26,732 nt of DNA. It comes from a virus. The translations under genes and the position numbers were made by a program. Numbering within the stretch: position 1 is the first letter of the stretch; every line of letters starts with the position of its first letter. Below, in pieces: positions 7,080 to 23,237 of this stretch. The DNA is taken from positions 1 through 26,732 of IMG/VR virus record IMGVR_UViG_3300023174_000569; one strand, 5' to 3'. Under the pieces are notes generated by a model. That model saw only the letters and a list, made by a program, of their open reading frames with translations. It was not told where the DNA came from and did not search any database.

Positions 7080-9197
7080 CTAGCTCCTTAATAGAATTTT
7101 TCTTGGTGTGACTTTGCTTATGCTTGTGTCCTGTTTTGAAGGAATAGGCGGACGATTTTGATAAGATACATTAGTAAAAACTCCATTCCCATCTATGCTC
7201 ATACTCCAAGATTTCAAACTTGGGTCAATTGCAGGAACATATTCTCCAATTATTTCATACGTTCTATTTTCGCTTATAGCATGGAAAGAAGAAACTTGGG
7301 CGTTGCCACCTCCAGCGCTTAAGTCTGTCAAAGAATATCTTAGACTTTGAACATTGTCACTATCTAATTCAGGAATAATATCTTTATTTGGGTCAACGAG
7401 TGCATCATTTATTTTGAGTTCGCCAGCCACAGACTTACTCATATCATCTGTTTTTTTGTACCAACCCCAAAATGTAGATGTAGATGGAAGGACTATTCCT
7501 CCTAAGCAATAACCTTTATTGTCTTCACTTCCTTGAAAAATTCCTGCAGCCCCTTTAGAGCATGATTGATTTAATATCTGACAAGCGTCTTGTTGTTGAT
7601 CTTCGCACGGTAATAAGCAATACGTATCTTTTTGATTTACTGGACGCTTTAATTCTTCATCTGGATGCAAACAAGAACTAGATTGAACACTTACTCCTGG
7701 CACGTTACTTTTCCAAGCCACAAAAGCTGCATTTGTAAAATCTCCGCCAAAGGCTGAACTATTAGAGTTATTTGTGCATTGTGAATATTTTTCTGCCAAT
7801 TCTCCTATTAAAGGAACAATAACGGGAGCATAATAGCTTCCCAAATCATCTATTTTAGATGGGGCGATATCTTTTGCTGATATATTTTTTCTCCAAAATC
7901 CACCCGCATCAATATCTGGATAAAATTCAGAAGTCGTTATTTTTCTAAATTCATTTGATATACAATTTTTTTCTTCGGTTGAGGCAGGTCGTGTTATACT
8001 AGCTTTATATAATATTCCATATTCTTGAATGGCAGCTGATTCTGCATTTATATAATAATTTTTTAGTTCATCGCTAAATCTTGTCAAATTCCAGTAAGTA
8101 AAACCTTGATTGACTAAATCCAATAAGCTGCTGTCTTGCATACAATCAGCTAATGCAAACATATCATTTTGGAGAAACCCTGCCGTAGGATTAACTGAAT
8201 ATAGCCCTCCATAAAACCCTAATCTACTATATAAACCAGCCTGTCTACAAATTTGGTCTCTCCACATCGGTCCCCTCATGGCAATAGCTCCCAATTGAAC
8301 ATCTAAGGTAAGAGTCGCATTCACAGGACTTAAAGTAAATTGGGTATAATTTTCTCTAGTCTGAGAAAGGCTTCTGGTAGGCTTCAAAGAAAAGCTTGAG
8401 CCATATTGCTTGTATGTACCATCCCTGCTGGATTCATATGTGCGTTTCTTTACATTTGGATTATTCGCTAGATCTGTATCTGCTATTGGTACCCCTTGCG
8501 ATCCATCTATAATTTTAACTTTGCCTAAATAATCAGTCATAAATGATGCACCAGCGTCCGAACATATACTAGAAAGAACTTCTCTTAAAGTACCCGTATA
8601 AGACAATGTTGCGTCACCTGCTCGGCTCAATAAACTAATATTTTCAATATGACTACCACAAGCAGCAATAAAATCATCAACCGAATAACCTGAATCTTTA
8701 TTATCGCAGGATAAAGCAGCGACTTGACCAACAGTTTTTTCCACTTGATCTTCACAATTTATACACTCTTTTTCTTCTTCGACTCCTTGAATCTCTCCAC
8801 CTAAAATAATCATTCCTCTTTCTATGCTTCCACAATACGTTGAGCGCGCACATACACCGTGACGATAATTAATTCCTACATAAGTAGTATCTAAAAAAGA
8901 AGATCCATCTAAGTATGTAAAATGTGCTGTGGTATATTCAGGATTATCTTCGTACGAAACCCCAAACAGTTTCATGGTTCCTCCTAAAGGAAACCCACCC
9001 CCAACTGTTATATTAGCTTGCGTATTCAACTCGGCACCACCAGGCCTAGAAGCCCTAGGAGGGTAAACTGCACTGACAATATACTTTGGCGGACTTTCTA
9101 TACCATTACTTTCTATTCTAAAGCTAAATATAGATCCACCAAAAGCTTCTCCTTCAACGCCATTAAAAATTATAGAATTTAATTTCTGATTTGTCAT
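7080..9197 (-). CDS. Putative tail hub/tip protein, cysteine-rich
   Basis: A 705-residue protein starting with ATG at 9197, preceded by ATAAGGT and the TGTAA/TATAA element in a 29-bp gap. The N-terminal ~120 residues hold YLDGSSFLDTTYVGINYRHG, a pattern I remember from hub-like proteins downstream of tape measures in marine phages. Residues ~205-235 (TLREVLSSICSDAGASF) resemble a helix seen in hub/Tal-type proteins, where a short helix precedes a beta domain. It has 17 cysteines, with clusters ECINC and CLLPCEDQQQDAC, whereas the tape measure appears to have none. G+C is visibly higher than in the flanking AT-rich genes. Role inferred: the central hub where the tape measure ends and fibres attach. 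Alternatives are a Dit-like ring protein or minor tail protein. No peptidase or muramidase signature is visible. Confidence 0.7.
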   Translation of the reverse strand: MTNQKLNSIIFNGVEGEAFGGSIFSFRIESNGIESPPKYIVSAVYPPRASRPGGAELNTQANITVGGGFPLGGTMKLFGVSYEDNPEYTTAHFTYLDGSSFLDTTYVGINYRHGVCARSTYCGSIERGMIILGGEIQGVEEEKECINCEDQVEKTVGQVAALSCDNKDSGYSVDDFIAACGSHIENISLLSRAGDATLSYTGTLREVLSSICSDAGASFMTDYLGKVKIIDGSQGVPIADTDLANNPNVKKRTYESSRDGTYKQYGSSFSLKPTRSLSQTRENYTQFTLSPVNATLTLDVQLGAIAMRGPMWRDQICRQAGLYSRLGFYGGLYSVNPTAGFLQNDMFALADCMQDSSLLDLVNQGFTYWNLTRFSDELKNYYINAESAAIQEYGILYKASITRPASTEEKNCISNEFRKITTSEFYPDIDAGGFWRKNISAKDIAPSKIDDLGSYYAPVIVPLIGELAEKYSQCTNNSNSSAFGGDFTNAAFVAWKSNVPGVSVQSSSCLHPDEELKRPVNQKDTYCLLPCEDQQQDACQILNQSCSKGAAGIFQGSEDNKGYCLGGIVLPSTSTFWGWYKKTDDMSKSVAGELKINDALVDPNKDIIPELDSDNVQSLRYSLTDLSAGGGNAQVSSFHAISENRTYEIIGEYVPAIDPSLKSWSMSIDGNGVFTNVSYQNRPPIPSKQDTSISKVTPRKILLRS

Positions 9198-9222
9198 ACC
9201 TTATGCCTTTATAAGATTACAC
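9198..9222 (-). promoter_or_regulatory. GTGTAA-N3-TATAA leader element before the hub-like gene
   Basis: On the minus strand the gap reads GTGTAA (9222-9217), TCT, TATAA (9213-9209), AGG, then CATAAGGT and the ATG. An inverted repeat, CTTAT/ATAAG with a 6-nt loop, spans 9215-9200. Closely similar strings precede the tape measure and the first chaperone-region gene. It could be a phage promoter (TATAA as the -10 box) or an RNA leader that controls access to the SD. Which it is cannot be told from sequence. Confidence 0.5.
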
Positions 9223-9226
9223 GAGT

Positions 9227-11263
9227 TTATATCATCAATATTTGAATATTATTTCGTTCAATATTATTGAAATATCCTCCATTTAAATTATATTTTTTAT
9301 TATTATAGTCTATCCCATCAATTTTTAATAGTCCATTAACCCATAAAAGATGTTTTTTGGGGTAAATTTTAAAACTATCACTTATATTATTGCCAGTAAT
9401 CTTTTCGGTATAGGAATCTTCTAAAATCAATAATTTCTTATTATTAATATCGAAGTCAAAATAAATTGAATTTCCAATTTTACCGTAGTCTTTATGTTCT
9501 ATTAATTTTAATCCATCTAGAAATACATTATACTTATTAAAGTACGATAAATCTATACCAGTATTAGATATGTATTTATTTACTGTATAATCTGCGAAAT
9601 ATAGGCTTTTTGAATTTAATTTTTTAATTATATTAATATATTCATATTTTCTAATATTTGGCATATCTACATAGCCAGAATAAGAAAACCAATTTGAGAC
9701 AGATATTTCGTCGGGGTTACTCACATTTTCACTAGATCCATATATTGGCATATTATTACCAATAATTGTCCATCCAGAATTATTAGTCCAACGTATAAAA
9801 TAGTTACTTTCATTAATTGAGGCATATAAAGTTTTTTTAGTAACAGGTACAGGTATGCCATTTATGTATCTATTATAATTGTAGATACCACTCTCTATAT
9901 ATGAGCCATTTACCTTGGATTCTTTTTTCGCGCCAGAAACAAATATCATTTGTTTTGCTCCAGAAATTTTAAGAGAATTTAATCCTGTGATAAAATCTTT
10001 GACAACTCTACCATTATAAAAAATGTAATTCAAATCATCTGGTAAATAATTTAATCCAGAGCCAGTATATATATCTGAACGAACATCATCTTCATAAGTT
10101 TGAATTTCGTATAGATCTCCAGTGTTTGTTAATAAATCCTTTATATTATAATCAGAATAATTATTAAATAAATTTGTATCATACATTGGATATATCTTTT
10201 GATTTGTAAAATCTTCGGTTATTTGCTCTTCGGCAGAGTATTCTATCTTATATCCAGTTAAAGCTCCAGTGACTCCAGACAAAACGTAAATATTACAATT
10301 TGAATTATCTCCGCAATTTGTATTTATAGTTTCTTGAATAACCCTATCATATCTAATTATACCAGTTCCTATTATTCCAGTTGGGTTAACTTTACCGCTG
10401 TAGTATATTTTATAAGGATCAGGAGTCAAATTTATTCCTGAATAAAGCTCGCCAGTTTGACCTACTATTTTTGTTAATCTCAATAATTGATTTTCATTTA
10501 AAATTTGATTAATAACAATTACGTCCTTTAATACTCCAGAAAATCCAGTATGCATATTTTTTATAAAATTTACTTTATTGCCAATATACATTTCTTTAGT
10601 TATGTCATCATAATTTTGATTTATTTTTAATTCATTGTATATAAATGTATTTGTGTTGACGTCGGGTTGAATCAAATTAATTCTATTATTTTTTAAAGAT
10701 AAGCATATAATGTTTTTGTCTGGTAAAGAATCCTTAACAAAAGATTTATTATACTCAACAATTCCGCTTTTTTGTCCAGAAAATTCTATTAACATATCAT
10801 TTTTATCAGTTAAACTTACAGAATAAGAGAACTGATCGGTTGAAGACTCGGGCGAGCAAAAATCAAAAAGAACTTTATTTTTACCAATTAAATTAGTGTT
10901 TGCGTAATTATTACTTACTTCATTTTCAAAATGCAATAAAATAGTTTTTTGTCCAGAATTTAATCTTTGATTTAATTTCAAAGAATTATTTGCATCAAAT
11001 AAACCAGACCCACTCAAGTCGCTATATTTATAGCAAGAAGTGAATACTGAAGGATGATATTCATCAAATATAAAATTTCCAGAAACATTTGAGCCAAATT
11101 GTGTTTCGTTTGGATAAACGCTATTTTTTACAATTGATCCAGATACATTTATAAAATTTATATGAGAGTAAAATCTATCTAAATTTATACCTTCTCCGCT
11201 TAAAAAATTAGAAATAAAATTTGTATTCATTTTATAAAGGTAATCCTGTAATGCTTCCACCAT
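9227..11263 (-). CDS. Tail fibre/tip protein with LamG-like domain
   Basis: A 678-residue protein if started at 11263. That ATG has no SD and overlaps the upstream gene by 32 bp. The next ATG (11230, residue 12, MNTNFISNF) lies one base after the upstream stop and may be the true start. Residues ~75-265 look like a LamG/concanavalin-type lectin domain, ending in a ...YIGNK...GFSGVLKDVIVINQILNENQL pattern (split here for brevity). Residues ~435-540 hold a W/Y module (FIRWTNNSGWTII) shared with the 1439-residue protein. The C-terminus has two copies of a fibre-type motif, VFLDGLKL...DY and LLWVNGLLKIDGIDY, like the (V/L)xxNGxxLxxxxDY motif of many tail fibres. About 28 SG/TG dipeptides occur. 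Probably a carbohydrate-contacting tail tip or fibre component. Confidence 0.75.
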   Translation of the reverse strand: MVEALQDYLYKMNTNFISNFLSGEGINLDRFYSHINFINVSGSIVKNSVYPNETQFGSNVSGNFIFDEYHPSVFTSCYKYSDLSGSGLFDANNSLKLNQRLNSGQKTILLHFENEVSNNYANTNLIGKNKVLFDFCSPESSTDQFSYSVSLTDKNDMLIEFSGQKSGIVEYNKSFVKDSLPDKNIICLSLKNNRINLIQPDVNTNTFIYNELKINQNYDDITKEMYIGNKVNFIKNMHTGFSGVLKDVIVINQILNENQLLRLTKIVGQTGELYSGINLTPDPYKIYYSGKVNPTGIIGTGIIRYDRVIQETINTNCGDNSNCNIYVLSGVTGALTGYKIEYSAEEQITEDFTNQKIYPMYDTNLFNNYSDYNIKDLLTNTGDLYEIQTYEDDVRSDIYTGSGLNYLPDDLNYIFYNGRVVKDFITGLNSLKISGAKQMIFVSGAKKESKVNGSYIESGIYNYNRYINGIPVPVTKKTLYASINESNYFIRWTNNSGWTIIGNNMPIYGSSENVSNPDEISVSNWFSYSGYVDMPNIRKYEYINIIKKLNSKSLYFADYTVNKYISNTGIDLSYFNKYNVFLDGLKLIEHKDYGKIGNSIYFDFDINNKKLLILEDSYTEKITGNNISDSFKIYPKKHLLWVNGLLKIDGIDYNNKKYNLNGGYFNNIERNNIQILMI

Positions 11264-14222: not shown

Positions 14223-17200
14223 TTACCCTAGATTATACTGATCATTAGACCTAAATTTGTATGGACTTGGATTTGAATTAGTATTATTTTTTATAGCTTC
14301 ATCAACAAAATCCTTGATTTTAGCAAAAATGTCAGTTTTTATTTCGCTTAACTTTTCTTCCATAGCGTTCTCTAATGTTGCCTTAGTTTTTTCAAGATCT
14401 GTTTCGTCTATTTTAATAGATAAGCCACTTCCCTCTAAGCTGACTTTTACCTGACCATCTATAGATACTGGAGAAACATCTACCTTACCATTTAAATTCT
14501 TGGTCTCCTCAGAACTACCGTCTCCAGCACCTTGGCTCTGTTTTAATGAATCATATCCATTTTTAATTGCATTTCTAATACCTTCGCTTCCAGAACCTTC
14601 TTGGTCGTTTGTTTTTTGCAAAAGTTGTAAAATATTGGCTAACCTATCTAGCTTACCATCTACGCTCATATTGAGCTGCCTACTTTGATCTGGTGAAATA
14701 TTTGTTCCTCTTGGAGAGGGCCTATCGGTGCTTAATGTTTGATCTATAGTAGAAGGAATTATTCCTTTCGTTTCTATGGGAGAAATATTGGGCACGACAT
14801 CTTGTTGATTTTGTTGCTGTAATTCAATTGTTTTTTGACCTAATCTTTGCTGTAGATCTTGTATATCTCTAACAGTATTAAGCCAAGAATCAAAAGCCTT
14901 ATATGTTACGTCAGCAGTATCCAAGCCTGCTATCCCGTTTACCGCCCTTGAACCAATTGGGTTATTTTGATTTTTGAAATTTTCTTGCATTTCAGATAAT
15001 GATGGAATAGATTTATTATTCTTAATAGCCTCTTGGATAACTTGATTTATAACACCAAAAGCTTCAGGATTAGCTTTGGAAGCTTGATTACTCATCGAGC
15101 CAACTTGCGATTGTTTAAATTCTAAACTTTTTCTACTTATTTCTTGGCTGACTTTTTCATTTATATCTTTTATTGTCTTCTCTCCAGCTTTTTCTCTAGC
15201 GTCGGCAAATATGCGTGATTGGTCTAAATTTGATTTTCCAGAGCCTAAAGAAGAAGAAAATCCTTCTATCAGTTGCTGCATGGCGTTTTGTAAAGCTTGT
15301 TGGATTCCAGATCCTACTATATCTTTTTGCTGATCCTGAGATATTAATTTTAATAAATCATAAATTCCTTTAACGTCTGTACTTAATCCTTGCAAATTTA
15401 ACCCCATATTTTTGTTTGCGTCTGCAATTTTTAATTTTTCTGCTACTTGAATTCCAGCTATTGTACCAGCTTGAGATCTTCTACTTTTTAAAAATTCTAT
15501 CTGATTCATTTCGCTAGAACTTAAATTAGAATCAATATTTACATTCTTGCCTCTATTGAATGCGCCCCTTCTTATAGATTGAATTGCAGTATCAGCTTGA
15601 TATTTAATGTCGCTTTCTCTAGAGCTGACCATAGCTTCAATAAAACTATTAATTCCGCTAGATTTACTAGATAATTCGTCTGGTGTAAACCCACCAATTA
15701 AATCATATGTATTTGCTAATTGAGCTGTTCTGAAACCTGGCTTATTATAATTTGCGTCTGCATTTTCGAAAGCTGAATTTCTTTCTGCTGATAGATCATA
15801 ATTGCTCATTGCCCCTTGTCCACCAAAAGTTGAACGATAGACGTCTCTCGTAGCAATAGCTTTTTGGGCAGCGAGTTGAGCTTCTGCAATCCTATTAGCT
15901 TGATCAGTTTTTTGATTTAAATTTAAAAGGGCTTGAGTTTGACTGTTAAGCTCTGATGTAAATTGAGAATTTAAATCTGCTTTTTGACCAGAAGACATTT
16001 CTTGACCAATATTTCTATCAAACGCTTCCATTATGCTTTGTTTTAAGATTTCTGAAGGTTGGTTTTGATTTATTTTAGCAAAGTCAAGAGTCGCAGATCT
16101 AATTTTTTCTTCTCCAACTCCTTTTTCTCTAAGTTTGTCTAAATAATTTAAACCTTGGTCCATTAAAGATTTATTTGTGTTTGATTTTATTCCTTGCGCT
16201 TCATTTATAAAATCTTCATTTCTACTGGATTTTTCCATTCCATAATTTAATTTAGCTTGCTCAAACGGACTTAAAAATGGTTGCATATAATCTACATTTG
16301 CTCTAGCTTTCTCTAAACCTAAAGATCTTTGATTAGAAACATCTTGTTGTTGGTATCTTGTTTGGAAGTTATTAAAAGAAATTGCTGTTTTTGCTAAAGA
16401 ATCTAAAGACTGTTTAAAAGCTTCTACAGAAGATTTTGCGCGGTCTATAGCTTTTTTCTCTTCGTCTATTAATTTTTTCGCTGTTTCTCTAGCCTTTTCT
16501 GTGCTCTGTTGTACTTTGGCTGTTTCGCTGGAGTCTCTTCCCAATTCTATAATTTGAGCCCTTAACCTCTTAATATCTTCATCCGTAGAATTTCTTAGTG
16601 TTGATGATACTGTTTTATTTAATCCGTAATTTTTTTCTAAAGATGTTATGAACTGATTTTTATTCATGCGATTAAGTTCATCTGCTTTTTGAGGATTGAT
16701 GAAGTCTTTTTCGAATACTCCTCTTCCTGTTTCGCTAAAACCTTTTAATATCTCTGCAGCATCTTTTTTGCCTTGGGCGTCACTTCTAATAACTGTACCT
16801 TTTAATTTTTCTGTTACATTATCTATCATATCATAAAAACCATCTTGGATTTTTATGATTCCACCCTGTACTTTTGTCATTCCTAAAGCTCCAGCAAGAT
16901 TATCTGCTCCACCTAAAACTAATGATGGAATAAGATTAGTAGCCCTTCCTATGTTGCTACCAACTCCTTGTCCTCCTCCAGAGAGTCCTTTGTAATAATC
17001 TGATAAAAATTGAGGAACTGCACCTTTATCGTCTAGTCTAGACTGTAAATCAGTCGCAAAAGATAAAGAGCTTTGTTTTTGGATTAATTGTTTTTGTATT
17101 TTATTAATTTCTTCTTGCAATTCAACGTTATCTTGGATCGCTAATAACTGCATTCTATATGCTGATGGTATGTCTTTTGCGGCATTATTTAATTCTTTAT

Positions 17201-20200
17201 TTATTTTAATTAGATCTTCTGTTCTTGATTTTGGATTATTTCCTATGTCTTGCGCTTTTTGAAAAGTAGCTGAATATCTTTGGCTACTGTCTCCGAAAGT
17301 AGAAACATCGTTTTTAGCTTTATCCAGAGCTTCTGCGAGTTTTGGAGCTTTATCATTTAAAAAATGAGCAAGGCTATTTATTGCCCCAACTGCCCCTAGA
17401 GCTGCCCCAGCAAATAGACCAATTGGGCCTGGTATAATTCCCATTGCTGTGGTAGCGGCTCCAACGGATTGAGTCGCGGCGTCAATAGATTTGCTTAGTT
17501 GTTTGTTCTCTCCAGCAAAACTAGAAGCAAATCCTCCGACCATAGATAATCCAAAACTTGCAAATACTAATTTATTTTTAAAAGTTTGCATCTCTGTGGT
17601 AAGGCTTTCATCACTAAAGCCTTTTTGTAAAATATTTTTAGATTTTAAATAAGGCGGCTCTACATTAGATTTTTTCTCACCCATTGAAGTCAATGGACTA
17701 CTATTTGAAATAAGTTGATCAGATTTAGATCTTGCATTTTTTAAATTATCAGATATATTTTTTAAACTTATATCGCTATCTGATGAATTTTTAATCCAAC
17801 CATTTATTATATTAATGAATTGACCAATTTGTTTTTTAACTAAAACAAACCCTTCGGACATATCGAAGTTTGCTTTATTTATTCCAGACCTTAACGTTAC
17901 GTCTCTTTCTTCTGCATTTGAATTTAAAGCAAAATTAGGAATAAAATTACTTTTATAAATTTCTTTGCCACTTCCGCTTTTCATTAAATTACTTTTTGAG
18001 GCATTTTGCCCTTGATTTATGTGATCATTTTGTATAATTTTGTCTGCATTTGGTCCATATTTTGCAGTTTGTTTTGTGTTAGCTACAACTAATGAGCCTA
18101 AAGTATCTGACCATAAAACTTTTGGTTTCGCGCTTGGTTCAGCTTTTTTTTCTCGATTTACGGCATCTTCTAAAGCTGCAAAATTAGGTATAAATCCAGC
18201 AAAAGCATTTTTTTGATTTATAAATTTTAATAAATCTGGTCTTTCAGCTTTAAGTATTTTTAAAGCCATGCTCTTTCTATTATCACTACTATCAGAATTT
18301 TTAAAATCACCTGCGACTCCAACTGGCGAACCTGGAAAAAATAAAGGTAAATCTTTTGGTATTGAATTTATATCGAAAGCTCCAGTCGAAGAAGCTTTAA
18401 CGCTTTTACCAAACGCAGCTCTAAACGCTGACTCAAATATCCCTCCTATTGTACCTTCTAATGCTCCAGCTAGCCCTTCTGATTGACGTCTAGCATCTCC
18501 TATTGCTTGAGGCAAGTCAACAGGCGGACTTATTTTTCTAGTTTTATAAATGCTACTAGCAAAGTTTGTAATAGAATCGTTTATAGTTGTATCTAAGTTC
18601 TCTCTTAAGCTTTCTAGATTAAATCCAATAGAATTTTGATTAAATCCAACAATAGGAAATTGTACATCTATTGGAGGTTTTCCTTTGGGTCTAAATTCAT
18701 ATCCTTTTGAAGAACCTTGTTTTCTTAAAGCAAGTAAAGGTTTAGAAGAAGAAATAATATTTGATGCTTGTTGAGCAGCCAAAGCTTTTTTGTCTTTATC
18801 GCTCATGTACCCTGCTTGAGCTGCGTCTTCTGCGCTTATAGTTTTTGATTTAATTGCTGAAGGTATTTGGGAAGCAGAAAATCTTCTTCCACCAATATTG
18901 TAGTCCGCAAAATTAGGAATAAAACCTTCGTTTGCATAAGGGTCAAAACCATGTATTCTTTTAAAATTATTTTTATATAAGTCTCCAGCTTTGCTATTTC
19001 TTGGTGGTAAAATCGCTTCCTGTTCAAAACCTGGATATTTTACAATCGATTCAGCGTCATTATAAATAATTTCTCCTTCATTTTTTAAATTTTTTCTTTT
19101 TACTTTTCCTGCTTTATAACCGCCTAGAGATGCGCCAATAATTTCTGAAGCATGCCCAACGTCGTTAAAATTAGGTATATATCCAAAAGATTTATTCTTC
19201 TCTAATACTTTATTGGAAACAATTAAATTTTGAAGAGGCCCAGCCTTCCCAATCCCAACCCCTGCCGCACCTAACGATTTGGCTAGCGTTCCCGCCAAAG
19301 CTAACTGCTTTTGCATTGAAATAGTTTCTTGTTCTATTAAGCTTAATATTTCTCTATGTACTGCTGCAACATCTACATTACCTTTAGCAATTTGTTGAAC
19401 TAAAGCGGGATTCTTAGACATGATATTTATAACTTGAGATTGAATTTGGGCTTGCTCACTAGAAGCCGTATTCATTCCTGATAAAGTTTTAAAAGCGTCC
19501 GCAGAGAATTTAGTTAATCTTTCAAAAATTTTGTAAATGCCTAAAGTCGCTAAAACAATTCCTGGTCCACCCAAAAAATTACCAATGCCCTTAGCAATTC
19601 CTTCTCCTATCTTGGCTCCTATACCGTCTCCATTATTACCAGAGAAAGCAAAAGTTTCTAAAACTCCATTTAAACCACCAAGAGATTTTTTAAGAGCTGG
19701 TCCTAAAGATAATCCACCTATATCTGATGCAGCCTTAGTTAAGTTTGCAAAAGTTTTATTTAACCCTGCAGATAATGTCGTATTTAACTCTTCATTTCTT
19801 TTATTTGCTTCATCTGTAGCACCTTCAGATGTTGATAATGCTTGATTAAATACAGAATACTCTTTCGATAAGTCACTTAAAGCAGCTTTTAAAATATTGA
19901 TTTGGAATACACCACCAACTAATTCTGCCGTCTGAGATTTTTGAGTTCCAGATAATCCTTCAAATTTTGTTGATAGTTCACCTAAAATTTGTATTAATGG
20001 AGCAATATTTCCTTCGGCATCTCTAGTCTTAACTCCAAGTTCATCTAAAGCATTTAAAACTTCTGGTCTTTGTAATCTTGTAAAAATTGTTTTAAATGAA
20101 TTTCCAATAACTGCGCCACCTCTAGCTGTGATTTGTTGAGCAGAAGTAACTAAAGCTACGAGCTCATCTAATCCAACGCCAGCATCTTGCGCAGAACTAC

Positions 20201-20840
20201 CTACTCTTTTTATAGCCTCAGCAAGATCCGCAGAACTTACAGCGAAATTATTATCAACAGCAATTAATTTATTAATTAATTCGTTAGAACCTATAACAGT
20301 TTGATTAAATGAATTTAAAGCAGCAGTAATAGATTCTGTGCTACTAACAACATCTAAACCGCTTAATCTAGTCAATATTAATGCGTCATTTGTTCTTTTT
20401 AATGTTTCTGAAACTCCTAAACCTTGACGAGAAAACTCCAAAGCAGATTTAGCAACCGTATCAAAAGATTGACCCGTATTTTTAGCTAACTCAAATAAAT
20501 CATTACCAAATTTATTTAAATTAGCTGTACTTGTATTTAAAATTGTATTTATCTCTGCCAAGCTTTTTTGTACAGAAATCGTGCTTTGGACCATCGCGCC
20601 GAAAGCTTTTTCAACTGCATATATAGCTCCCGCAGAGACCCCGAATGCAATTACTCTAGCATTTGACGCAGCTAAAGATTTTTCAAATTCACCTAATTGG
20701 CCAGTAATTTTACCTAAAGGCTGGCTAAATCCTTTTGTATTTAAAACTAAATTAGAACTGGCTATCCTTTGTATATCCCTCTCTAGCTGCCTTGTATCGC
20801 CAGCTACATTAAGAACAACATCTTGAGAACCTTGGGCCAT
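14223..20840 (-). CDS. Tail tape measure protein (TP901 family) with an unusual central insert
   Basis: A 2205-residue protein, the largest in the window, starting with ATG at 20840 after AAAAAGG. Residues ~90-350 match the TP901-type tape measure domain (KSLAEINTILNTST, ITARGGAVIGNSFKTIFTRL). Residues ~553-970 hold four IPNF motifs (553-558, 639-644, 882-887, 965-970) and a nuclease-like pattern E803/D823/D845-x-K847. Hydrophobic stretches at ~1091-1110 and ~1127-1160 could insert in a membrane. Residues ~1200-2000 are mostly helical and Gln/Lys-rich. The C-terminus has a short beta segment (VDVSPVSIDGQVKVSLEG) followed by a coiled coil. I see no cysteine. It sets tail length and leaves the tail ahead of DNA. 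At ~0.15 nm per residue the upper estimate is ~330 nm, less if the insert does not contribute. The family call is firm; the insert's function is inference. Confidence 0.95.
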   Translation of the reverse strand: MAQGSQDVVLNVAGDTRQLERDIQRIASSNLVLNTKGFSQPLGKITGQLGEFEKSLAASNARVIAFGVSAGAIYAVEKAFGAMVQSTISVQKSLAEINTILNTSTANLNKFGNDLFELAKNTGQSFDTVAKSALEFSRQGLGVSETLKRTNDALILTRLSGLDVVSSTESITAALNSFNQTVIGSNELINKLIAVDNNFAVSSADLAEAIKRVGSSAQDAGVGLDELVALVTSAQQITARGGAVIGNSFKTIFTRLQRPEVLNALDELGVKTRDAEGNIAPLIQILGELSTKFEGLSGTQKSQTAELVGGVFQINILKAALSDLSKEYSVFNQALSTSEGATDEANKRNEELNTTLSAGLNKTFANLTKAASDIGGLSLGPALKKSLGGLNGVLETFAFSGNNGDGIGAKIGEGIAKGIGNFLGGPGIVLATLGIYKIFERLTKFSADAFKTLSGMNTASSEQAQIQSQVINIMSKNPALVQQIAKGNVDVAAVHREILSLIEQETISMQKQLALAGTLAKSLGAAGVGIGKAGPLQNLIVSNKVLEKNKSFGYIPNFNDVGHASEIIGASLGGYKAGKVKRKNLKNEGEIIYNDAESIVKYPGFEQEAILPPRNSKAGDLYKNNFKRIHGFDPYANEGFIPNFADYNIGGRRFSASQIPSAIKSKTISAEDAAQAGYMSDKDKKALAAQQASNIISSSKPLLALRKQGSSKGYEFRPKGKPPIDVQFPIVGFNQNSIGFNLESLRENLDTTINDSITNFASSIYKTRKISPPVDLPQAIGDARRQSEGLAGALEGTIGGIFESAFRAAFGKSVKASSTGAFDINSIPKDLPLFFPGSPVGVAGDFKNSDSSDNRKSMALKILKAERPDLLKFINQKNAFAGFIPNFAALEDAVNREKKAEPSAKPKVLWSDTLGSLVVANTKQTAKYGPNADKIIQNDHINQGQNASKSNLMKSGSGKEIYKSNFIPNFALNSNAEERDVTLRSGINKANFDMSEGFVLVKKQIGQFINIINGWIKNSSDSDISLKNISDNLKNARSKSDQLISNSSPLTSMGEKKSNVEPPYLKSKNILQKGFSDESLTTEMQTFKNKLVFASFGLSMVGGFASSFAGENKQLSKSIDAATQSVGAATTAMGIIPGPIGLFAGAALGAVGAINSLAHFLNDKAPKLAEALDKAKNDVSTFGDSSQRYSATFQKAQDIGNNPKSRTEDLIKINKELNNAAKDIPSAYRMQLLAIQDNVELQEEINKIQKQLIQKQSSLSFATDLQSRLDDKGAVPQFLSDYYKGLSGGGQGVGSNIGRATNLIPSLVLGGADNLAGALGMTKVQGGIIKIQDGFYDMIDNVTEKLKGTVIRSDAQGKKDAAEILKGFSETGRGVFEKDFINPQKADELNRMNKNQFITSLEKNYGLNKTVSSTLRNSTDEDIKRLRAQIIELGRDSSETAKVQQSTEKARETAKKLIDEEKKAIDRAKSSVEAFKQSLDSLAKTAISFNNFQTRYQQQDVSNQRSLGLEKARANVDYMQPFLSPFEQAKLNYGMEKSSRNEDFINEAQGIKSNTNKSLMDQGLNYLDKLREKGVGEEKIRSATLDFAKINQNQPSEILKQSIMEAFDRNIGQEMSSGQKADLNSQFTSELNSQTQALLNLNQKTDQANRIAEAQLAAQKAIATRDVYRSTFGGQGAMSNYDLSAERNSAFENADANYNKPGFRTAQLANTYDLIGGFTPDELSSKSSGINSFIEAMVSSRESDIKYQADTAIQSIRRGAFNRGKNVNIDSNLSSSEMNQIEFLKSRRSQAGTIAGIQVAEKLKIADANKNMGLNLQGLSTDVKGIYDLLKLISQDQQKDIVGSGIQQALQNAMQQLIEGFSSSLGSGKSNLDQSRIFADAREKAGEKTIKDINEKVSQEISRKSLEFKQSQVGSMSNQASKANPEAFGVINQVIQEAIKNNKSIPSLSEMQENFKNQNNPIGSRAVNGIAGLDTADVTYKAFDSWLNTVRDIQDLQQRLGQKTIELQQQNQQDVVPNISPIETKGIIPSTIDQTLSTDRPSPRGTNISPDQSRQLNMSVDGKLDRLANILQLLQKTNDQEGSGSEGIRNAIKNGYDSLKQSQGAGDGSSEETKNLNGKVDVSPVSIDGQVKVSLEGSGLSIKIDETDLEKTKATLENAMEEKLSEIKTDIFAKIKDFVDEAIKNNTNSNPSPYKFRSNDQYNLG
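17931..19184 (-). repeat. Four (G/N)(F/Y)IPNF motifs delimiting modules in the tape measure
   Basis: The motifs are GYIPNF (19184-19167), GFIPNF (18926-18909), GFIPNF (18197-18180) and NFIPNF (17948-17931). Spacing is 86, 243 and 83 residues, so two ~85-residue intervals flank one long interval. Interval 1 contains VKYPGFEQEAILPPRNSKAG; interval 3 contains VVANTKQTAKYG followed by DHINQGQ. I recall such IPNFA-punctuated modules from marine phage tape measures. Their function is not known to me. Confidence 0.8.
18300..18437 (-). other. PD-(D/E)XK nuclease-like residue pattern within the tape measure
   Basis: A helix, GGIFESAFRAAFGK, carries E803. It is followed by AFDI with D823 and then VAGDFKNS with D845-F846-K847, and a basic helix (RKSMALKILKAE). 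The order helix-E, strand-D, strand-(D/E)xK with ~20-residue spacing is the active-site layout of the PD-(D/E)XK superfamily. The preceding residues GLAGALEGTIGG fit the Gly-rich turn often seen before the first acidic helix. This is pattern matching by eye on one sequence; a structural domain without activity is quite possible. Confidence 0.35.
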
Positions 20841-21890: not shown

Positions 21891-22692
21891 TTTTTACGGT
21901 TTGATTGTTTTCTTCTCTATTAGGCAAATCTGCTATATCTTTTTCTCCAGAATATACTTTTTCAAAATAAGCAAAATCATCTTTATTTGTTATTCTTCCT
22001 ACGTACCATAAGCTTATGAAATAAGCTAATTTTTTAATTACTATTTTTATAAAATCATCCTCGCCATCTTCAATTTCATCATATTTCGATAGTCTATTAT
22101 CATAAGAGCTATCGGTAAAAATAGGTTCAAATGTATCTTTTTCTGATTCAATATAGGATAGGGTCAGTACCCACCACATAATAGTTTGATTTCTGGCTCT
22201 ATTTTCTGCAGTTTGCTCGAATAAATTTGATTGATAAAGCTCGAACTCTTGTAGCTCTTTTCTTACGTCAAGTAGGTCATTTAAAACTACTTCTGTCTTC
22301 TTCTGGCGCAACTCTTGAGGTAAATTATCTAGATTAAGTTGAAGACGTTGAAATTCAGTTTCTTTTTTGAATAAATCTAAATATAGACCCGCGTATCTTT
22401 GCTTTTCTGGATCACTTAATGCCCCACCATCGTTTTGATACCTTTTGGCTAATAAAGATCTAGTTAATAAGCCAGATTTAATTCCTTCTGATAATTTTAC
22501 TCCATAAAATAGCTCTGCTTCATCAAATACTTTTCTTGTAGGCTTTAAAATTCTGATTTTGATCGGCCTATTTATAAGTTCTTTTTTAGTAGTCTTTATT
22601 TCTTGACCAGCTTCATCTTTTGAAACGACTGTTTTTTCAAGAAACTCTTCTTTTTCTAACGTGAATTCGTATAAAAATTTATTTGGATTCAT
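21883..22692 (-). CDS. Putative tail assembly chaperone
   Basis: A 269-residue protein starting with ATG at 22692, overlapping the upstream gene by 14 bp and the downstream gene by 8 bp. The N-terminus is beta-like (KFLYEFTLEKEEFLEKTVV, PIKIRILKPTRKVFDEAELFYG), followed by long helices (FKKETEFQRLQLNLDNLPQELRQ), a W-rich helix (ARNQTIMWWVLTLSY) and an acidic segment (YDEIEDGEDD). The C-terminal part (IIKKLAYFISLWYVGRI) is hydrophobic but too charged at its flanks to call a membrane span. Its place between tail tube and tape measure, in a pair with the next gene, is where tail assembly chaperones (the lambda gpG/gpGT type) are encoded. That positional argument is the main support; the sequence has no diagnostic motif known to me. 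Confidence 0.6.
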   Translation of the reverse strand: MNPNKFLYEFTLEKEEFLEKTVVSKDEAGQEIKTTKKELINRPIKIRILKPTRKVFDEAELFYGVKLSEGIKSGLLTRSLLAKRYQNDGGALSDPEKQRYAGLYLDLFKKETEFQRLQLNLDNLPQELRQKKTEVVLNDLLDVRKELQEFELYQSNLFEQTAENRARNQTIMWWVLTLSYIESEKDTFEPIFTDSSYDNRLSKYDEIEDGEDDFIKIVIKKLAYFISLWYVGRITNKDDFAYFEKVYSGEKDIADLPNREENNQTVKSE

Positions 22693-22948
22693 AATTTATT
22701 TCTAGCGCTTTTTTTTCTAAGAATTTTTTAGTTTTTTCAAAATTAGCTTTACCACCGATTAATTTTATAAAATTATTCTTTTTATCTTCTTCCCAAGACA
22801 AAAAGTATTTAATATAATTAGGACTGTTTAAAAATTTTAAATTTAAAAATTTAAAATTAGACTCTAAATATTTTTTAACAGAAGGCATGGATGCATTGGC
22901 TTCTATTATTTGCAATATATTAAAATTATTTGTCTTTTTGATTTTCAT
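22679..22948 (-). CDS. Small hypothetical protein in the chaperone region
   Basis: An 89-residue basic protein, start ATG at 22948. It overlaps the upstream gene by 23 bp and the downstream gene by 14 bp. No clear SD precedes the ATG; the upstream bases are an A-rich run, so translation probably depends on the preceding gene. It contains NILQIIEANASMPSVKKYLE, an aromatic middle (YIKYFLSWEED) and a lysine-rich end. Predicted mainly helical. I recognise no family. Its coding status is supported by tight packing between two co-oriented genes and the absence of any alternative frame there. A role with the adjacent tail assembly genes is inferred from position alone. Confidence 0.6.
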   Translation of the reverse strand: MKIKKTNNFNILQIIEANASMPSVKKYLESNFKFLNLKFLNSPNYIKYFLSWEEDKKNNFIKLIGGKANFEKTKKFLEKKALEINYESK

Positions 22949-23237
22949 TTTTTTTAATATTTAAATCCATGAAGTCGAAATTTTTTTCTATTTCTCTTAT
23001 CGTCTCGTTACCTAGATCTAATATTTTTTTCCTTAAGTAATTATATTTATTTTCATCAAAATAATCTACATTTTTTAAAAAGCTCGCTTCTATTTTTTGA
23101 TTTAATTTATTAAGCATGTTTAAATGCTCTTCTTGCATGTCCTCTATTACATTCAGATATCTTTTATATAAAGAAACAATGTTTCTGTGTATTTGAAATA
23201 ATATATATTTTTTAATATCATCTTTATCAGATTGCAT
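22926..23237 (-). CDS. Small helical hypothetical protein, first gene after the tube terminator
   Basis: A 103-residue protein starting with ATG at 23237, with a good SD (AAGGAG) about seven bases upstream. It is almost wholly helical and charged: residues ~30-55 (IEDMQEEHLNMLNKLNQKIE) look like a coiled coil, followed by YFDENKYNYLRKKILDLG. There is no cysteine or membrane segment. It is the first gene after the terminator behind the tail tube gene and follows the TGTAA/TATAA element, so it probably opens a new transcription unit running into the chaperone-like genes. I recognise no family. A small assembly factor is a guess from position. Confidence 0.65.
   Translation of the reverse strand: MQSDKDDIKKYILFQIHRNIVSLYKRYLNVIEDMQEEHLNMLNKLNQKIEASFLKNVDYFDENKYNYLRKKILDLGNETIREIEKNFDFMDLNIKKNENQKDK

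Follow-up and report, generated by a model that had tools for sequence, protein, structure and literature searches.

Tape measure proteins (TMPs) with muralytic or peptidase domains are known; these domains target the cell wall and are a constant component of the protein. TMPs extend along the whole tail tube and are considered to leave the virion together with the DNA or before it, and in phage 80alpha their C-termini lie at the tip and their N-termini at the neck (PMC11661146). The nearest concept to the locus described here is that of the polyvalent proteins of phages and conjugative elements, large injected chains that join disparate enzymatic domains; the paper on these proteins makes no mention of TMPs (PMC5512222). 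A 2023 survey of phage protein mosaicism reported signals of TMP mosaicism in sequence and confirmed no genuine recent case (PMC10684548). Here we analyzed a single linear viral record of 26,732 bases with 31% G+C (IMG/VR record IMGVR_UViG_3300023174_000569, positions 1 to 26,732; this whole stretch is called the window below), whose TMP contains a module with the active-site pattern of PD-(D/E)XK nucleases. We consider it probable that this module, residues 646-881, is a metal-dependent PD-(D/E)XK-type nuclease-like cassette, exchangeable and situated in an effector region of the TMP that is polymorphic, carried in the virion and ejected into the host.

Conservation of a PD-(D/E)XK signature in a tape measure protein

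The protein was assigned as a TMP by its N-terminal profile match to PF10145 (103 bits, cut-off 33.2), the great length of its open reading frame (ORF) and its location in a tail gene cluster; matches to tail families were found elsewhere in the window and also adjoining the TMPs of relatives. An initial annotation had noticed in it a nuclease-like pattern of E803, D823 and D845-F846-K847, and these residues are indeed present at the proposed places, with E803, D823, D845 and K847 all within a module of 236 amino acids (aa) flanked by copies two and three of a short motif, GFIPNFA. The proposed domain extent of about 645-880 needed only slight correction, to about 646-881, with motifs at residues 639 and 882. 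The features that carry the argument are the following:

14223..20840 (-): TMP, 2205 aa; PF10145, E 2.2e-29; PHROG tape measure families to E 2.7e-47 (best phrog_4211)
19923..20492 (-): N-terminal PhageMin_Tail domain (Pfam), residues 117-306, the conserved carrier part; ~55% identity to related TMPs
18198..18905 (-): PD-(D/E)XK-signature cassette, residues 646-881 (236 aa), from homologues, conservation and an AlphaFold2 model of residues 639-890
18444..18446 (-): G799, invariant (97/97), first residue of the G-x-x-F-E motif
18432..18434 (-): E803, motif I acid in helix alpha-1
18372..18374 (-): D823, motif II
18300..18308 (-): D845-F846-K847, motif III (D/E)xK, on a strand
18258..18260 (-): K861, in the next helix

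Searches run directly with the whole TMP or with the domain on its own gave no close relatives in viral_contigs; the family was opened by degenerate DNA patterns for the GFIPNFA motif. IMG/VR was scanned for DNA encoding G[FY][IV]PNFA, yielding at least about 275 loci (handles with L below) and at least 253 motif-bearing ORFs, most of them with two to eight motifs; the TMP N-terminal domain was detectable in at least 147 of the 253. All family counts and fractions given here refer to this sample, among the matches listed, which was selected by motif and codon pattern. Iteration with the motif included let the profiles drift through it, so profiles were built on motif-free segments and counts were taken from these. 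In this way, at least 153 homologous domains were found in 146 ORFs, the window's own counted. In the control, the profile found 152 domains in the real segments, whereas reversed or shuffled ones gave no hit, showing that the pattern is beyond chance.

The domain was present in 83 of the 113 sampled long TMPs; the other 30 were without it, some possibly cut off by contig ends. The domain alone had no match in Pfam, PHROGs, PDB sequences or 50,697 cultured-phage records, or in IMG/VR by single-sequence patterns. The cargo was thus rightly called unusual with respect to cultured phages, but it is usual in its own lineage. A scan of genome contigs for the motif together with an AIxRE sequence found nothing and hence gave no link to a prophage or host.

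Conservation was counted in 97 members dereplicated at 60%. K847, like G799, is invariant, D823 is kept in 96 members, and position 803 is E in 94 and D in three; 96 of the 97 members have the whole catalytic quartet. Position 845 is occupied by D in 65 members and by E in 32, which is the classic (D/E)xK exchange, and position 861 by K in 81 and Q in 15. The quartet residues rank among the most conserved columns of the family, and overall domain identity is mostly 15-30% (57-60% to the closest relative). The residue pattern was not created by the profile, because it was also seen in first-pass pairwise alignments. The alignment of homologues that the initial annotation had proposed as a check bore out its residue pattern: the four residues are kept almost without exception across very divergent sequences, and the order of an acid in alpha-1, D and (D/E)xK that defines the PD-(D/E)XK active site is found in the domain family. 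The catalytic lysine is lost in two relatives, L183 1448-2080 (+) (DTE) and L196 1899-2327 (+) (DAY), which are possibly inactive copies and rare exceptions.

Exchange of cassettes at the GFIPNFA motifs

The cassette lies in a row of modules separated by copies of the motif:

19164..19184 (-): motif 1, GYIPNFN, residues 553-559
18927..19163 (-): spacer module A, small and conserved, residues 560-638; phmmer of residues 553-645 gave 36 related ORFs among the matches listed
18906..18926 (-): motif 2, GFIPNFA, residues 639-645, left cassette border
18177..18197 (-): motif 3, GFIPNFA, residues 882-888, right cassette border
17949..18176 (-): spacer module C, small and conserved, residues 889-964; phmmer of residues 882-971 gave 16 ORFs among the matches listed
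17928..17948 (-): motif 4, NFIPNFA, residues 965-971

The two spacer modules on either side of the cassette are found again in many related TMPs, and they matched no known family.

The clearest exchange was found between the TMPs of L061 and L100. Their amino acid identity is 98% in the N-terminal part and 89% in the small module before the domain, drops to 26% inside it and returns to 96% and 95% after it, and the catalytic residues are kept in both alleles. The DNA alignment (94.7%) stops at L061 nucleotide 1743, the final base of motif 2 (1723-1743), and restarts (95.6%) at nucleotide 2470, six bases ahead of motif 3 (from 2476). This pair looks like a genuine recent case of TMP mosaicism, with borders at base level. 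The same swap pattern was seen in the pairs L108/L182, L017/L275, L103/L121, L255/L217, L041/L236 and L004/L061. In total, 78 swap events were recorded in 57 ORFs (not all of them independent), where 62% of the left and 41% of the right breakpoints lay within 30 nucleotides of a motif, compared with 4.4% of random positions. Single swaps could be metagenomic chimeras, but the repeated coincidence with motif borders is not explained in this way. The window's own cassette comes closest to the one in L061 (60%), whereas the rest of these two TMPs is less alike (55% N-terminal, 24% C-terminal); other TMPs with N-termini equally similar to the window's carry cassettes of only 24-31% identity.

The motif as a conserved DNA recombination site was set aside, as its 777 occurrences comprise 550 different 21-mers; with DNA this varied, selection acts on the peptide. 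The GFIPNFA peptide (in the window at residues 553, 639, 882 and 965) is thus kept at the protein level, and a linker, a docking site or a processing site are candidate roles for it.

PD-(D/E)XK homing nucleases exist, and the sharp replacement of alleles at the borders would also be expected from a selfish homing-type element, whose nuclease cuts rival cassette alleles in co-infecting phages and which spreads by repair at the motif borders. However, the domain is an in-frame part of a late structural protein, where neither an intein nor splicing is apparent, and these borders also serve for swaps of cassettes that lack the nuclease signature (e.g. L014/L103), which means that the nuclease is not required for swapping. 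We therefore regard homing as improbable. Cassettes without the nuclease profile were observed in L014, L103, L121, L189 and L210; they swap at the same motif borders in TMPs that are 95-99% identical elsewhere.

Slots equivalent to that of the cassette hold other enzyme-like domains. In L168, a cassette slot is occupied by a staphylococcal-nuclease (SNase) domain at 8760-9344 (-) that passes its Pfam cut-off (E 1.9e-9). GNAT-type domains (best E 7.2e-8), a GHKL-type ATPase (E 5e-5) and P-loop segments lie in slots between motifs, and the TMPs of L017, L077, L078 and L108 carry more than one nuclease-like cassette. In the window, the nuclease-like module is the sole recognizable effector-type module of the TMP, whereas its relatives carry GNAT, GHKL, SNase and P-loop-like modules. 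These varied slot contents fit an effector region better than a fixed structural part. As to individual relatives, the SNase of L168 is a second, unrelated nuclease type as TMP cargo, and GHKL-type ATPase, GNAT-like and P-loop segments were located between GFIPNFA motifs in L025 4352-6751 (-), L049 259-696 (+) and L017 7900-8382 (-). Inspection by eye also suggested kinase-like and ART-like segments in L053, L020 and L047; Pfam gave no confirmation, and we make no claim for them.

The same data bear on the idea that the domain is a real nuclease acting in the virion or during assembly, where it would trim or process the end of the phage's own DNA at the neck or tail, as the head-completion nuclease gp4 of T4 probably does in packaging. 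In phage 80alpha, the N-terminal side of the TMP is indeed directed towards the neck and the end of the DNA (PMC11661146), and T4-like phages have a virion nuclease of the restriction endonuclease fold that is required for packaging (PMC7824862). Such housekeeping, however, leaves unexplained the 26% identity inside a gene otherwise 95-98% identical, the other enzyme-like domains in equivalent slots, and the 30 of 113 long TMPs (some possibly truncated) that do without the domain. We consider this role quite unlikely; both it and homing are less likely than a nuclease-like effector cassette.

Predicted fold and proposed role of the cassette

The window domain was modelled with AlphaFold2 using 47 sequences, giving a predicted local distance difference test score (pLDDT) of 85.9. 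In this model, one helix (~788-813) carries E803 and a strand (844-849) carries D845 and K847; the next helix (852-866) contains K861. The layout that the initial annotation had proposed is thus recovered for E803 and for the D845/K847 strand and its following helix, but at D823 only one bridge residue is left of the strand. Among the relatives there are shorter forms in which strands follow the second helix; the model of one such minimal relative, L275, reached a pLDDT of 76.3. The order alpha(E)-D-strand(DxK)-alpha(K/Q) is present in both models and fits the PD-(D/E)XK active-site pattern, but the accompanying fold comparison found no significant Foldseek match, and the similarities to nucleases described next were sub-threshold.

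In a second look at L275 with VIA, only three of 493 chains had Z >= 2, and the top two, although under any trusted threshold, were McrC of McrBC (Z 2.7, root-mean-square deviation 4.3 over 90 residues; weak) and the DUF4297 protein of the DUF4297-HerA complex (Z 2.2, 106 residues aligned; weak), both of them PD-(D/E)XK nucleases. These are the only two credible fold matches, and both model-based similarities are weak, suggestive but not proof. The best VIA rows for the window model, spliceosome and NMDA-receptor chains (Z <= 4.0), aligned mainly over long helices, and the Foldseek matches of L275, mainly peptidyl-tRNA hydrolases, were all insignificant. Families of the PD-(D/E)XK superfamily often have no detectable sequence similarity to one another. 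A comparison of the profile with 135 proteins gave no signal above controls for McrC, Mrr, HsdR, RecB, RecC, MutH, YaeQ and T4 gp4, all known or putative PD-(D/E)XK members, and profile matches to lectins were taken as chance alignments on GxxFE.

The insignificant Foldseek matches and the poorly formed core strands of the models would also suit a non-enzymatic binder of metal or DNA, or a nuclease-like enzyme of unrelated fold, with a structural or recognition role. Yet an invariant E/D/(D/E)xK amid freely changing sequence is the mark of a catalytic site, and degenerate copies such as the DTE and DAY variants are rare. This explanation is in our opinion unlikely.

For a PD-(D/E)XK-type cassette, we propose the following sequence of events. 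The GFIPNFA motifs mark the borders at which recombination between phages exchanges cassettes, leaving the surrounding TMP intact. The TMP would lie in the tail tube and exit the virion before the DNA when infection starts; the domain would thereby arrive in the cell envelope or the cytoplasm of the recipient right at entry. There it may cut nucleic acid, with candidate targets being the DNA of the host, a plasmid or prophage already in the cell, a phage that competes with it, and defence-related nucleic acid. The fast replacement of cassettes with a strictly kept catalytic site suggests, by analogy with polymorphic toxins, selection for changing specificity or escape from resistance.

Several points weigh against this interpretation. 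Compared with the alpha-beta-beta-beta-alpha-beta core fold of the superfamily, the window's own model has no clear beta-2 and no beta-4 strand; neither model had a Foldseek match at E < 0.1, with the window model searched against PDB and BFVD; and no sequence match to any known nuclease family was found in Pfam, PHROGs or PDB. Moreover, an active nuclease that shares a channel with the phage's own DNA would need self-protection, for which no candidate was identified, and a folded domain of 240 aa would presumably have to pass the tail tube.

As to neighboring genes, two small overlapping ORFs upstream of the TMP, at 22679-22948 and 22926-23237 (-), have the place and size of the tail assembly chaperones G/GT.

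Comparison with known systems

With the PD-(D/E)XK superfamily (McrC, Cap4/DUF4297-type, Hjc, Mrr), the cassette family shares the helix E, the D, the (D/E)xK strand and the following helix with a conserved K/Q, and its best structural matches, albeit weak, are to McrC and a DUF4297 nuclease. It differs by having no profile similarity to any known family, and by its embedding in a TMP; most members, including that of the window, have a strand-rich N-terminal extension and no obvious strand after the second helix. If the interpretation is right, the family comprises diverse putative nucleases whose catalytic residues offer an immediate mutant test. In the literature searched, with most subscription journals outside its scope, we found no description of nuclease cassettes in TMPs.

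We see about an even chance that, in a widespread lineage of uncultured phages, the TMP serves as a rack on which exchangeable effector enzymes are loaded, most of them nucleases of a new PD-(D/E)XK family, to be swapped at GFIPNFA and ejected into the host at infection, making it a phage counterpart of polymorphic toxins. If true, TMPs would be not only rulers and cell-wall drills but also carriers of exchangeable enzymes that enter before the phage genome, and these enzymes would arrive when host defences first meet the phage.

Like the TMPs with muralytic or peptidase domains, the protein has an enzymatic domain inside a TMP, here with a nuclease signature and exchangeable. As in the large polyvalent proteins (PMC5512222), TMPs of this lineage may join disparate enzymatic domains in one injected chain, the candidates being nuclease, SNase, GNAT-like and GHKL-like modules; the carrier, however, is a TMP, and its cassettes are bounded by one short motif. 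Sle1 effectors of the actinobacterial contractile injection systems (PMC13277306) likewise combine a TMP-related carrier in a tail-like particle with interchangeable functional domains, but Sle1 belongs to a bacterial contractile particle, has its functional domain at the C-terminus, and is neither a phage TMP nor a member of this nuclease family. Finally, polymorphic toxins (Rhs, CDI, MuF; PMC3482391, PMC5576092) share the conserved delivery part with swapped, fast-diversifying domains, often nucleases. The cassette exchange reproduces this arrangement, with domains that are putative effectors. No adjacent immunity gene turned up, and no search was aimed at such genes. In contrast to the C-terminal toxin domains of those systems, the cassette is internal (residues 646-881 of 2205), and its carrier is a phage TMP.
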